NCBI GenBank assembly: GCA_021786095.1
Contig: JAJYNX010000032.1
Coordinates: forward strand, 1 to 40,563
Length of the DNA: 40,563 nt
Direction of reading: 5' to 3'
Origin: Actinomycetes bacterium
GTDB lineage: Bacteria; Actinomycetota; Acidimicrobiia; Acidimicrobiales; RAAP-2
A program made the translations under genes and the position numbers. Positions 9,779 to 39,533 of the stretch are shown in pieces. Below the pieces are notes generated by a model. It saw nothing but the letters and a program-made list of their open reading frames with translations, searched no databases and was not told the DNA's origin. Numbering within the stretch: the first letter of the stretch is position 1; each line of letters opens with the position of its first letter.

Positions 9779-9851
9779 GCCTGGGTAGCTCAGTCGGTAG
9801 AGCAGCGCATTCGTAATGCGCAGGTCAAGGGTTCGAATCCCTTCCCAGGCT
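9779..9851 (+). tRNA. tRNA-Thr (anticodon CGT)
   Basis: A full cloverleaf can be folded. Acceptor GCCTGGG (9779-9785) pairs with CCCAGGC (9844-9850). The D-arm contains TAGCTCAGTCGGTAGAGCA. Anticodon stem GCGCA/TGCGC encloses loop TTCGTAA with anticodon CGT at 9812-9814, which reads ACG (Thr). The T-arm is GGGTTCGAATCCC. The 3' CCA is not encoded. The 3' end lies inside the antisense murD2 reading frame. Confidence 0.96.
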
Positions 9852-34728: not shown

Positions 34729-34800
34729 AGCCGGTGGAGGGATTCGAACCCACGACCTGACGATTACAAATCGCCTGCGCTACCACTGCGCCACACCGGC
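34729..34800 (-). tRNA. tRNA-Thr (anticodon TGT)
   Basis: On the minus strand, acceptor GCCGGTG pairs with CACCGGC. The D-arm has GGCGCAGTGGTAGCGC, anticodon stem GGCGA/TCGTC (one G-T pair) encloses loop TTTGTAA with anticodon TGT (reads ACA), and the T-arm is GGGTTCGAATCCC. CCA is not encoded. It sits at the downstream edge of the anomalous 32.7-34.7 kb segment, convergent with the repeat-protein gene. Confidence 0.95.
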
Positions 34801-35358: not shown

Positions 35359-36138
35359 CTACGACTCGGGGTCCGGCAGTTCGACCCCGAAGCGCACCAG
35401 GGCGGCGTGCAGCACGTCGACCGCGATGGGGCGTAGTTCGTCGAGGGGCCGGTTGCGGTGGCGGCGGACGCCGAGGTCGACCTGGGCGAGAGACCGGACG
35501 CCGAACTTGCGCGCGACGTCGATCAGAAGGGCGATCTCGACCCCGTATGCGGACTCGAAGTCGATCGCCTCGAACGCGGACCGGCGGCCCGCCGTCTCGC
35601 CCGCGAGTGGCTGGCGGACCTCCCCGAGGCCGGGGTAGAGCAGGGAGAGAATGGGTCGCGCCGCCAGCTCGTTCACGCGCCCGCCTCCCGTGGGCAGGTC
35701 GTGGAGCGGGCGCTCGTAGTAGCCCTTGACCAGCTGGGTCTCGGGACGTTCGAGGAGGGGCTGGATCAGGCGGGCGACGAAGTCGTCCGCCGTGTTGATG
35801 ACGTCGGCGTCGAGGTACACGACGAGTTCGCTCCTGGTCTCCTCGAGCCCCGCCCGCATGGCCTCGCCCTTGCCGCCGGGTCCGCGCAGTGTCACGACGC
35901 GCGCACCGTGGTGGTGCGCGATGGTGGTGGTGTCGTCGTTGGAGTGGTCGTTCACCACGACCAGCTCGTCGACCGACGCCACGCCGTCGAGCACGGCGTC
36001 GAGTACGGCGCCGATCGTCGCCGCCTCGTTACGCGCGGGGACGATCACCGCGATGGTGGTCGTCCCGCGGCGGTCGTGGAACGAGTCGCGGGAGAAGTCG
36101 TCGCGGTCGAGGGTCCAGGGGGCGTCGACGTCGACCAT
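35359..36138 (-). CDS. gpgS: Glucosyl-3-phosphoglycerate synthase (GT81/GT2-like)
   Basis: 259-residue glycosyltransferase making glucosyl-3-phosphoglycerate, first step toward glucosylglycerate or methylglucose lipopolysaccharides in actinobacteria. GT-A motifs: VIVPARNEAATIG, ELVVVNDHSNDDT, GPGGKGEAMRAGL, and VYLDADV (DxD). GpgS-specific stretches are QLVKGYYERP, GGGRVNELAARPILSLLYP, VRQPLAGETAGRR, and YGVEIALLID with AQVDLGVRRHRN. The frame is open to 36177, but ATG 36138 (VDVDAPWTLDRDDF) gives a family-like N-terminus. The upstream region is shared with the divergent riboswitch. Confidence 0.88.
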   Translation of the reverse strand: MVDVDAPWTLDRDDFSRDSFHDRRGTTTIAVIVPARNEAATIGAVLDAVLDGVASVDELVVVNDHSNDDTTTIAHHHGARVVTLRGPGGKGEAMRAGLEETRSELVVYLDADVINTADDFVARLIQPLLERPETQLVKGYYERPLHDLPTGGGRVNELAARPILSLLYPGLGEVRQPLAGETAGRRSAFEAIDFESAYGVEIALLIDVARKFGVRSLAQVDLGVRRHRNRPLDELRPIAVDVLHAALVRFGVELPDPES

Positions 36139-36196
36139 GCAAGGCACACTACGGCTCGCGGCTGGTGCACTTGACACCCGCCCCGCCGGTCGGCCA

Positions 36197-36300
36197 TGAT
36201 GGACGGGTCATCAAGAGCGACTGAGGGACGGGCCCTTTGAAGTCGCGACAACCAGTGTGAGCACGTCGTGTCACACCAGGTGCCAAAGCCCGATCGATGA
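36197..36300 (+). promoter_or_regulatory. SAM-I-clan riboswitch upstream of the threonine-synthase-like gene
   Basis: The S-box core is recognisable. P1 is TCATC (36208-36212) with GATGA (36296-36300). AAGAG follows at 36213. P2 is GCGACT (36217-36222) with AGTCGC (36241-36246), enclosing the kink-turn/pseudoknot core GAGGGACGGGCCCTTTGA. ACAACC follows. P3 is GTGTGA (36255-36260) with TCACAC (36271-36276). GGTGCCAA (36279-36286) is the conserved 3' core. The P4 hairpin of standard SAM-I appears missing, so the subclass (SAM-I, SAM-IV or SAM-I/IV) is uncertain. No terminator hairpin exists: the P1 3' strand abuts AGAGGAG, the ribosome site of the ATG at 36310, so translational control is likely. 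TGATG (36197-36201) can pair with CATCA (36209-36213) as an alternative to P1. Confidence 0.85.
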
Positions 36301-36309
36301 AGAGGAGTT

Positions 36310-37557
36310 ATGAGTTTCGCCACAGGTCTTATCTGTCGAGAGTGTGGAACGGCCTACCCCGCGGAGGCCCGTTACGCCTGTGAGTTCTGCTTCGGTCCCC
36401 TCGAGGTGTCCTACGACCTCGAGTCGGCCAGGGGCGTGGTCACGCGCGCGTTGATTGAGAGCGGTCCGGCGTCCATCTGGCGCTACGCCCCGCTCCTGCC
36501 CGATCCGGGGCCGTCGCCCGTCGACCTCGGGGCTGGATGGACGCCGTTGCGTCGGGCTTCGCGACTGGCCGAGGTGCTGGGCGTGCGCGAGCTCTGGCTG
36601 AAGGACGACACACGCAACCCGACCGGGTCGTTCAAGGACCGCGTCGTGTCCGTGGCGTTGTCGAGTGCGCGCCGCCTGGGCTTCACGACGGCGGCGTGCG
36701 CCTCCACCGGCAACCTGGCGACGTCGGTGGCGGCCCACGCCGCCGCCATTGGCTGGCCGAGTGTGACGATCATCCCCTCCGACCTCGAGAAGTCCAAGAT
36801 CGCGATGGCCGCGGTGTTCGGCGGGACGGTGCTCGGCGTCGAGGGCAACTACGACGACGTGAACCGCTTGTGCGTCGAACTGGTCGCCGAGCACGAGGAC
36901 TGGGCCTTCGTCAACGTGAACCTGCGCCCCTACTACGCCGAGGGCTCCAAGACGCTGGCGTTCGAGATCGCCGAGCAGCTCGGCTGGCGTGCGCCGGATC
37001 AGGTGGTCGTGCCGGTGGCCTCGGGCAGCCAACTCACCAAGGTGGCGAAGGGGTTCGAGGAGTTCGTCTCCCTGGGACTGATCGACGGGCCCGCCCCCGT
37101 CCTCTTCGGAGCCCAGGCCGAAGGGTGCTCGCCCGTCGCCACGGCGTTTCGTAGCGGTGCGGACGTCGTGACCCCCCAACGTCCGCACACCATCGCGCGC
37201 TCGCTGGCCATCGGCAACCCCGCCGACGGCCTCTACGTGCTCGACGAGCTACGCGCCCACGGGGGCGACTGCGGGTCGGTGCCCGACGACGAGGTCCTGG
37301 AGTGCATCTCGCTGCTGGCACGCACCGAGGGGATCTTCGCCGAGACCGCCGGGGGAGTCACGATCGCCTCACTGCGCCAGATGCTGGCGCGCGGCACGAT
37401 CGACCCGGACAAGTCGATCGTGGCGATCATCTCGGGCCACGGGCTCAAGACGCTCGACGCGATCGTGGACAGCGCCACGGTCAGCTCGACGATTCGCCCT
37501 TCGCTCGCGGACGCCGAGGAGGCGTTGCGCTTCCACCAGCTGGTGGCGGTCTCGTGA
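36310..37557 (+). CDS. thrC: Threonine synthase-family PLP enzyme (zinc-ribbon type; possible homocysteine synthase)
   Basis: 415-residue fold-type II PLP enzyme. An N-terminal zinc ribbon (CRECG near residue 9, CEFCFGPLEV near 26) is followed by TPLRRASRLAE and the PLP-lysine motif NPTGSFKDRVV. CASTGNLATSVAAHAA is the phosphate-binding segment and GLKTLDA lies near the end. The family makes threonine from O-phosphohomoserine. Context suggests otherwise: a SAM riboswitch controls it, and a MoaD/CysO-type sulfur carrier overlaps its stop by 4 nt, both features of methionine/cysteine synthesis. I recall, without being able to verify here, reports of threonine-synthase-like enzymes in Streptomyces that make homocysteine from O-phosphohomoserine. 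Family assignment is firm; the substrate is open. AGGAG precedes ATG 36310. Confidence 0.9.
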   Translation: MSFATGLICRECGTAYPAEARYACEFCFGPLEVSYDLESARGVVTRALIESGPASIWRYAPLLPDPGPSPVDLGAGWTPLRRASRLAEVLGVRELWLKDDTRNPTGSFKDRVVSVALSSARRLGFTTAACASTGNLATSVAAHAAAIGWPSVTIIPSDLEKSKIAMAAVFGGTVLGVEGNYDDVNRLCVELVAEHEDWAFVNVNLRPYYAEGSKTLAFEIAEQLGWRAPDQVVVPVASGSQLTKVAKGFEEFVSLGLIDGPAPVLFGAQAEGCSPVATAFRSGADVVTPQRPHTIARSLAIGNPADGLYVLDELRAHGGDCGSVPDDEVLECISLLARTEGIFAETAGGVTIASLRQMLARGTIDPDKSIVAIISGHGLKTLDAIVDSATVSSTIRPSLADAEEALRFHQLVAVS

Positions 37558-37829
37558 GCGTCGTCGTCCGACTGCCTAGTCAGCTCCGCTCCCTGGTCGG
37601 AGGGGTCGGTGAGGTGCCGGTCGAGGCCGGGACCGTCCGCGAGGCGATCGTCGCGGTGGACGCCCAGTACCCCGGGGTGGCGTTTCGGGTCCTGGACGAT
37701 CGCGGGGCACTGCGGCGATTCGTGAATGTGTTCGTGGCCGACGAGGATGTCCGCTTCCTCGACGGGCTGGACACCGTGGTCGAGCCCGGCCAGACGGTCT
37801 CGCTGGTGCCGGCGGTCGCCGGAGGCTGA
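37554..37829 (+). CDS. MoaD/ThiS/CysO-family sulfur-carrier protein
   Basis: 91-residue ubiquitin-like protein ending in AVAGG; the terminal di-glycine is where a thiocarboxylate forms in MoaD, ThiS and CysO. The beta-grasp pattern is visible: VVVRLPSQLRSLVGG, VREAIVAVDAQYPGV, RRFVNVFVADEDVRFLDGL and VEPGQTVSLVPAVAGG. GTG 37554 overlaps the ThrC-like stop (GTGA), so the two are made together. In Mycobacterium the related CysO hands sulfur to CysM, another fold-II PLP enzyme. Here the natural recipient is the upstream enzyme. No activating MoeB-like or Mec-like protease gene is in the window. Confidence 0.88.
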   Translation: MSVVVRLPSQLRSLVGGVGEVPVEAGTVREAIVAVDAQYPGVAFRVLDDRGALRRFVNVFVADEDVRFLDGLDTVVEPGQTVSLVPAVAGG

Positions 37830-37834
37830 CCGCG

Positions 37835-39533
<1,699 letters not shown>

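Follow-up and report, generated by a model that had tools for sequence, protein, structure and literature searches.

A stretch of 40,563 nucleotides (nt) from an Actinomycetes bacterium of the order Acidimicrobiales (RAAP-2; assembly GCA_021786095.1, contig JAJYNX010000032.1, positions 1-40,563), hereafter the window, carries an S-adenosylmethionine (SAM)-I riboswitch followed by two overlapping genes, one coding for an enzyme of the threonine synthase (ThrC) superfamily and the other for a small sulfur-carrier protein. Based on sequence comparisons, we hold with high confidence that this gene pair, here termed metM-metO, would make homocysteine, from which methionine is formed. The fuller statement, that the MetM-MetO cassette is the organism's homocysteine route and draws its sulfur in vivo chiefly from the carrier, appears likely. 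Such a route is known from Streptomyces (2024), and it is very probably the one recognised here in another bacterial lineage. The original prediction for this DNA had read the enzyme as a maker of homocysteine and not of threonine, and the two genomic tests of that reading, namely whether this is the only thrC of the genome and whether a complete conventional homocysteine pathway exists elsewhere in it, both failed to refute it; the activity itself and the use of a thiocarboxylate we infer.

The metM-metO cassette and its leader

The cassette and the genes on either side of it are laid out as follows.

36171-36200, + strand: sigma-70-like promoter, TTGACA-18-CATGAT, with 10/12 consensus matches
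36205-36303, + strand: SAM-I riboswitch aptamer (RF00162, 56.5 bits; gathering score 44.4)
36303-36307, + strand: Shine-Dalgarno sequence AGGAG, directly 3' of the P1 strand, as read from the sequence
36310-37557, + strand: metM-type gene, ATG start, 415 amino acids, zinc-ribbon fold-II pyridoxal 5'-phosphate (PLP) enzyme of the ThrC superfamily
37554-37829, + strand: metO-type gene, GTG start, 91 amino acids, beta-grasp sulfur carrier ending in PAVAGG
37911-39533, + strand: groEL (TIGR02348), a synteny marker for which no role is claimed, located close to metO in relatives whether or not they have metM
35359-36177, - strand: glucosyl-3-phosphoglycerate synthase-like gene (gpgS; NF010496, 263.7 bits, cut-off 262), divergent upstream, a synteny marker

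This organisation, in which the aptamer ends 6 nt before position 36310, agrees with the one first described from the sequence, i.e. a SAM-I-clan aptamer at the ribosome site of a ThrC-like gene and a 91-residue beta-grasp protein with a terminal Gly-Gly, whose open reading frame (ORF) overlaps the preceding stop by GTGA. Through this 4-nt overlap, shared by the metM stop and the metO start, the two genes are probably translationally coupled.

A first set of 41 genomes, which includes the window's own (G000), was searched, and 32 of them hold metM. An RF00162 match was found upstream of metM in all 30 loci having the metM 5' end on the contig (G011 and G018, where metM begins at the contig edge, were excluded from this count); 29 of the 30 aptamers score above the gathering score, and that of G019 lies below it, at 43.0 bits. 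The distance from the aptamer end to the metM start is 6-11 nt in 29 loci and 135 nt in G033, where the true start may lie further upstream. Membership of the RF00162 family is borne out both by the score over gathering and by covarying stems: in an alignment of 12 leaders, pairing is kept in 95.8% of cells, and the changes on both sides, counted in the second and fourth helix, amount to 18 cells versus 4.2 in shuffles. Since single-sequence minimum-free-energy folding of the leader showed no excess stability (z 0.14), the aptamer assignment rests on the covariance model and the covariation. One promoter-like site was found in the region versus 0.1 expected from shuffles, and TTGACA-like hexamers are similarly placed in many relatives (judged by eye, uncounted). 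As this promoter ends only 4 nt before the aptamer, the leader would be little more than the aptamer itself. No terminator-like site was found in the leader region and the Shine-Dalgarno sequence directly follows the P1 strand, for which reasons riboswitch control is probably exerted at the level of translation.

Additional SAM riboswitches were seen 4-7 nt before ORFs of 122-146 amino acids at three loci (L202, G003:C42; L204, G019:C34; L210, G017:C47), and at two others (L205 and L206; G036:C118 and C110), where the distance is 7-8 nt and the ORFs, 279 and 293 amino acids long, are alike by eye and unlike methionine genes.

MetM compared with threonine synthase

The MetM protein has a PALP domain (244 bits) and cysteines at positions 9, 12, 24 and 27. 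Its AlphaFold2 model (predicted local distance difference test score 84.2) has Arabidopsis ThrC as its best match in the PDB (2c2b_C; Z 40.5, root mean square deviation 2.4 over 378 residues); such a predicted structure only confirms the ThrC fold, and nothing beyond. The window's gene is not the only thrC of its genome, as a second, conventional one lies on contig 30 of G000 (TIGR00260, 301.8 bits), where it is preceded by lysA (419.7 bits) and by hom (486.3 bits). In the ThrC tree that the original prediction had asked for, built as a quick tree of 92 rows for which the program warned of long branches, MetM and conventional ThrC fall in two sets, one of 10 conventional ThrC rows and one of 79 metM-type rows together with G029, each with a Shimodaira-Hasegawa-like approximate likelihood ratio test (SH-aLRT) value of 97. 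Three sequences with long branches and unsure placement in the tree (G027 C58, G029 C29, and G037 C15) were excluded from both residue-count groups.

Between the 79 metM-type and the 10 conventional ThrC rows, 28 columns consistently differ. Among these, conventional ThrC has Gly/Met where the metM-type rows have V112/V113, Thr at the position of L136, Ser at N204, Asn at R206, Arg at Y209, and Asn at S238. By alignment, MetM positions 202, 204, 209, and 238 correspond to N154, S155, R160, and N188 of Thermus thermophilus ThrC, which we take to be its phosphate-binding residues. Three of these four positions are replaced in 79/79 metM-type rows (N204, Y209, and S238), against S, R, and N in 10/10 ThrC rows. 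Murakawa reportedly found in 2011 that the product phosphate drives threonine formation by ThrC, and the loss of phosphate-site residues could be a signature of a switch from water to sulfur addition. Overall, MetM shares with conventional ThrC (TIGR00260) the fold, the PLP lysine (K109, in SFKD), and the presumed substrate, while it differs at the 28 positions, including three of the four presumed phosphate-binding ones. A plain thrC paralogue was rejected as an explanation on the grounds of genome context and replaced residues.

Pathway context, carrier and distribution

In G000, which is 96.4% complete, the search for the conventional pathway, with metA, DUF39, and MalY-type lyases outside its scope, gave no match for MetX and no full-length protein of PF01053 (the MetB, MetC, MetY, and MetZ family), none reaching 1e-30. 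Three partial PF01053 matches were obtained (29.3, 24.8, and 19.8 bits). That of 29.3 bits is above the Pfam cut-off of 27 but spans only positions 71-177 of 381; all three probably belong to other PLP enzymes. The complete conventional homocysteine pathway whose presence was to be looked for was, therefore, not found, with no MetX match and only these sub-domain PF01053 matches to show. As no full-length PF01053 protein was found, G000 would have no cystathionine beta-lyase of this family. Of the neighbouring steps, thrB scores 167.9 bits, just under its cut-off of 168.25, and a PF02574 domain lies in an ORF of 1171 amino acids, which we take for a MetH-like enzyme. A MoeB-like activating enzyme (E1) with an N-terminal rhodanese-like part is also encoded (NF006444, 567.6 bits against a cut-off of 449), although it scores only 56 bits with the rhodanese model, below that model's cut-off. 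In seven genomes of the order with metX (G026, G028, G029, G035, G036, G037, and G040), there was no match to TIGR00191 (homoserine kinase) at E 0.001, and another homoserine kinase may be at work there.

From these components the following course can be proposed. The MoeB-like E1 with its rhodanese-like domain would adenylate and thiocarboxylate the C terminus of MetO, while Hom and ThrB would make O-phosphohomoserine, which MetM would bind as ThrC does. MetM would then eliminate phosphate to give a PLP-bound vinylglycine-type intermediate. With most of the residues presumed to hold phosphate in ThrC replaced, water would not be added at C-beta, and the carrier sulfur would add at C-gamma to yield homocysteine. 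In Streptomyces, thiocarboxylated MetO is said to donate sulfur to O-phosphohomoserine, a result ascribed to Hasebe et al. in 2024. The MetH-like enzyme would methylate the homocysteine and, at high SAM, the aptamer would fold next to the Shine-Dalgarno sequence and repress translation of both genes.

MetO matches the ThiS family in Pfam (46.4 bits, for a query that began with three extra letters). When the query was exactly the 91 amino acids, the NCBIfam models SAMP1 (NF041918) and MoaD gave 54.5 and 32.7 bits, both under their cut-offs of 60 and 49.5. Its best solved relatives are 4n6e_B (a ThiS/MoaD family protein; 4e-17) and 3dwg_C (4.2e-17), presumably CysO from Amycolatopsis and from M. 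tuberculosis, respectively. The PAVAGG ending is unchanged in 11 aligned carriers, and the carrier gene stands beside metM in 32/32 metM genomes of the first set. In eight genomes (G005, G006, G011, G016, G024, G031, G033, and G039) the carriers have residues after the terminal Gly-Gly (C, CC, CA, S, I, Q, or A), and such carriers, with one or two residues past Gly-Gly, might need trimming by a peptidase. At one locus (L020, G015:C168), metM and metO form a single frame; as this frame contains an unknown residue (N in the DNA), it is probably an assembly gap and not a fusion. Contig 36 of G000 has genes for a JAB-peptidase-like protein (69.2 bits, against a cut-off of 130) and a second carrier (SAMP1, 62.8 bits, cut-off 60), as well as a cysK/cysM-like gene (313.5 bits, cut-off 344). 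The possibility that MetO is the cell's CysO was rejected since the second carrier adjoins the cysK/cysM-like gene; two carrier-enzyme pairs thus coexist in G000.

Within the first set, 24 genomes hold metM only, 8 hold both metM and metX, 9 hold metX only, and none lacks both; 14 metM genomes of this set are without a full-length PF01053 protein. When 16 other families of the order were represented by one genome each (G034 being only 70% complete), metM alone was found in 8 and metX alone in 8, and never both (p = 1.6e-4). Strict mutual exclusion of metM and metX nevertheless fails in the window's genus and in the class, where 149 separate genomes comprise 21 with both genes, 30 with metM only, 74 with metX only, and 24 with neither; the pattern is therefore used only as local evidence. 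Among the 30 metM-only genomes of the class, a PF01053 protein at 1e-30 is still present in 13 and absent from the other 17. In one genome without metM (G028), an RF00162 aptamer precedes a PF01053 gene, then metX; this arrangement, the expected enzyme swap, was seen once. Two genomes with metX hold a diverged metM-like gene (45-46% identity) together with metO at the same syntenic place and without a SAM riboswitch (G029:C29, L199; G175:C6, L216).

A scan of public genomes gave at least 596 confirmed loci, the best 80 of which were named. Compilation of the data on these named loci revealed that (i) most belong to Actinomycetota, with a few from Nitrospirota and Chloroflexota, one from Hydrogenobacter, and one from Omnitrophota, and one metagenome-assembled genome (MAG) labelled Acidobacteria nests in the window's genus; (ii) the flanking DNA of 63/80 contains a metO-like match; (iii) those without one comprise six Micromonosporaceae, five Geodermatophilaceae, one Nocardioides, the Hydrogenobacter, Lentzea, Prauserella, Amycolatopsis, and a Pseudonocardiales MAG; and (iv) a SAM aptamer is present in 29 of the 40 that were scanned with Rfam, the 11 others being nine from outside Actinomycetota (among them L179, with only 147 nt upstream), one Acidimicrobiaceae MAG, and L146, which starts at the end of the available sequence.

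In four genomes with metX (G026, G030, G035, and G036; L195-L198), an orphan metO-like carrier (56-58% identical) is kept within 2 kb of groEL where metM and the riboswitch are missing; it is adjacent to groEL in G030 and G036, and one ORF lies between them in G026 and G035. Such orphans would fit a scheme in which the carrier is the stable core, one thiocarboxylate donor feeding either of two unrelated homocysteine synthases, MetM or a MetY-type enzyme, swapped under the same riboswitch class. We regard this scheme as rather doubtful, since three of the eight other-family metX genomes (G028, G037, and G040) are without such a metO, any carriers they have being more distant, and it is in one of these, G028, that the riboswitch precedes the PF01053 gene and metX.

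As to the surroundings of the cassette, the order gpgS, riboswitch, metM, metO, groEL is common to the window and three other loci (L213, L217, and L218), and the gpgS neighbour is matched also at L198, L199, and L213-L218. The window further contains tRNA genes at 34729-34800 (-) and 9779-9851 (+).

Alternative readings and known systems

Several observations weigh against homocysteine synthesis by MetM and MetO. The TIGR00260 model gives MetM 266.6 bits, against a cut-off of 167.1, and would name it threonine synthase; the fourth phosphate position, N154 of T. thermophilus, is retained as N202 in both groups (79/79 metM-type rows). A metX or metY could have been missed because the genome is 96% complete, and metA, DUF39, and MalY-type lyases were not covered. 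Eight of the 41 genomes, all of the window's genus, and 21/149 class genomes hold metM and metX together, so that exclusivity is only local, and G029 was scored as metX only though it holds a diverged metM-like gene. No metO-like match was found at 17/80 named loci, L180 and L181 having an incomplete flank. Finally, according to the accessible parts of a study on Microcystis (PMC12172450), a homologue with 51.6% identity to MetM, whose gene adjoins a metO-like one, converts O-phosphohomoserine to threonine and deaminates threonine in vitro, and in its authors' view is not a full functional equivalent of MetM in cells; activity can therefore not be read from the family alone.

The Microcystis enzyme, as described in those parts of PMC12172450, is at the same time an argument, together with the ThrC fold and the TIGR00260 score, for taking MetM as a second threonine synthase next to which the riboswitch and the carrier are incidental. 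We give this very little credence, in view of the conventional thrC that follows hom in G000, the SAM riboswitch kept at 30/30 assessable loci, the replaced phosphate-site residues, and the anticorrelation of metM and metX over the 16 families. An equally slender chance attaches to the formation of cystathionine from O-phosphohomoserine and cysteine by MetM, followed by cleavage by another lyase: these are the two key substrates of methionine synthesis in plants, as stated in the portion available of a review (PMC13257386), and the genome search did not include MalY-type lyases, but the genome has no full-length PF01053 protein, and a direct transfer of sulfur is in keeping with the linked carrier gene. 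Somewhat less improbable, but still unlikely, is that MetM makes homocysteine from free sulfide in vivo, the carrier being only a helper or serving elsewhere. The 15/80 named loci that show no neighbouring carrier match in their downstream flank (plus the two incomplete ones) would be consistent with this, as would the persistence of orphan metO without metM near groEL; it is opposed by the carrier standing beside metM in every metM genome of the first set and at 63/80 named loci, and by the conserved PAVAGG. Homocysteine synthesis by MetM with sulfur from MetO is the reading that we retain as likely.

This reading bears on a gap in the knowledge of methionine synthesis. Price et al. (2018; PMC5764234), in the passages available, stated that at least one homocysteine pathway was still undiscovered, the organisms concerned being Acidimicrobium ferrooxidans, Aquifex aeolicus, and Pyrolobus fumarii. 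One genome of the window's order (G053), probably that of Acidimicrobium ferrooxidans, has the riboswitch (60.0 bits), metM (58%), metO, and groEL in a row, with no MetX at 1e-60 and, for PF01053, only one partial match of 248 bits. Because this genome carries the whole cassette, the Streptomyces route of 2024 probably fills the gap, at least as far as Acidimicrobium is concerned. No paper making this link was found in the literature searched; Hasebe et al. (2024) may themselves do so. The Hydrogenobacter locus (L134, Hydrogenobacter sp., Aquificaceae) has a metM-type gene (55%), within 3 kb of which neither a SAM riboswitch nor a metO-like match was found, and is a candidate for the Aquifex part. 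More generally, zinc-ribbon "threonine synthases" encoded beside a small carrier and a SAM riboswitch may need re-annotation, and genome-based calls of methionine auxotrophy in such lineages may be wrong.

Among known systems, the CysO-CysM(-Mec+) cysteine route of Mycobacterium resembles the cassette in that a beta-grasp Gly-Gly carrier adjoins a fold-II PLP enzyme, and 3dwg_C is among MetO's solved relatives. In contrast, the window's enzyme is of the ThrC kind and not of the CysM family; the CysO-CysM-like trio of G000 stands elsewhere, with all scores below equivalog cut-offs except for the carrier's SAMP1 model. In Wolinella, HcyS and MetY reportedly form a protein-thiocarboxylate route to homocysteine, described by Krishnamoorthy and Begley in 2011, and the HcyS partner MetY is a PF01053 protein acting on acylated homoserine. 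The likeness here is the path from carrier thiocarboxylate to homocysteine, whereas the window's enzyme is of the ThrC family and no full-length PF01053 partner was found in its genome.

The closest system is that of Streptomyces. The ThrC-like homocysteine synthase remembered from this genus in the original prediction does exist: it is MetM, identified by Hasebe et al. (2024; doi 10.1128/aem.01247-24), with homologues in cyanobacteria, as cited in the accessible parts of PMC12172450. The same source, as far as available, places a SAM riboswitch upstream of S. albulus metM and draws a comparison between a gene of the sulfur-carrier family and S. albulus metO. Six Streptomyces orthologues, standing in for the S. 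albulus protein itself, lie within the metM type and group with the window's genus in the starred tree set of 55 rows; they have the same residues at the diagnostic positions that were rechecked. The window's MetM is 56-59% identical to Streptomyces proteins. At the four Streptomyces loci scanned the aptamer is present, ending about 70-90 nt before the start, compared with 6 nt in the window. The gpgS/groEL synteny and the lack of a full-length PF01053 protein are features of the window's genome, while the ThrC-homologous enzyme, the adjacent sulfur carrier, and the upstream SAM riboswitch are shared by both.

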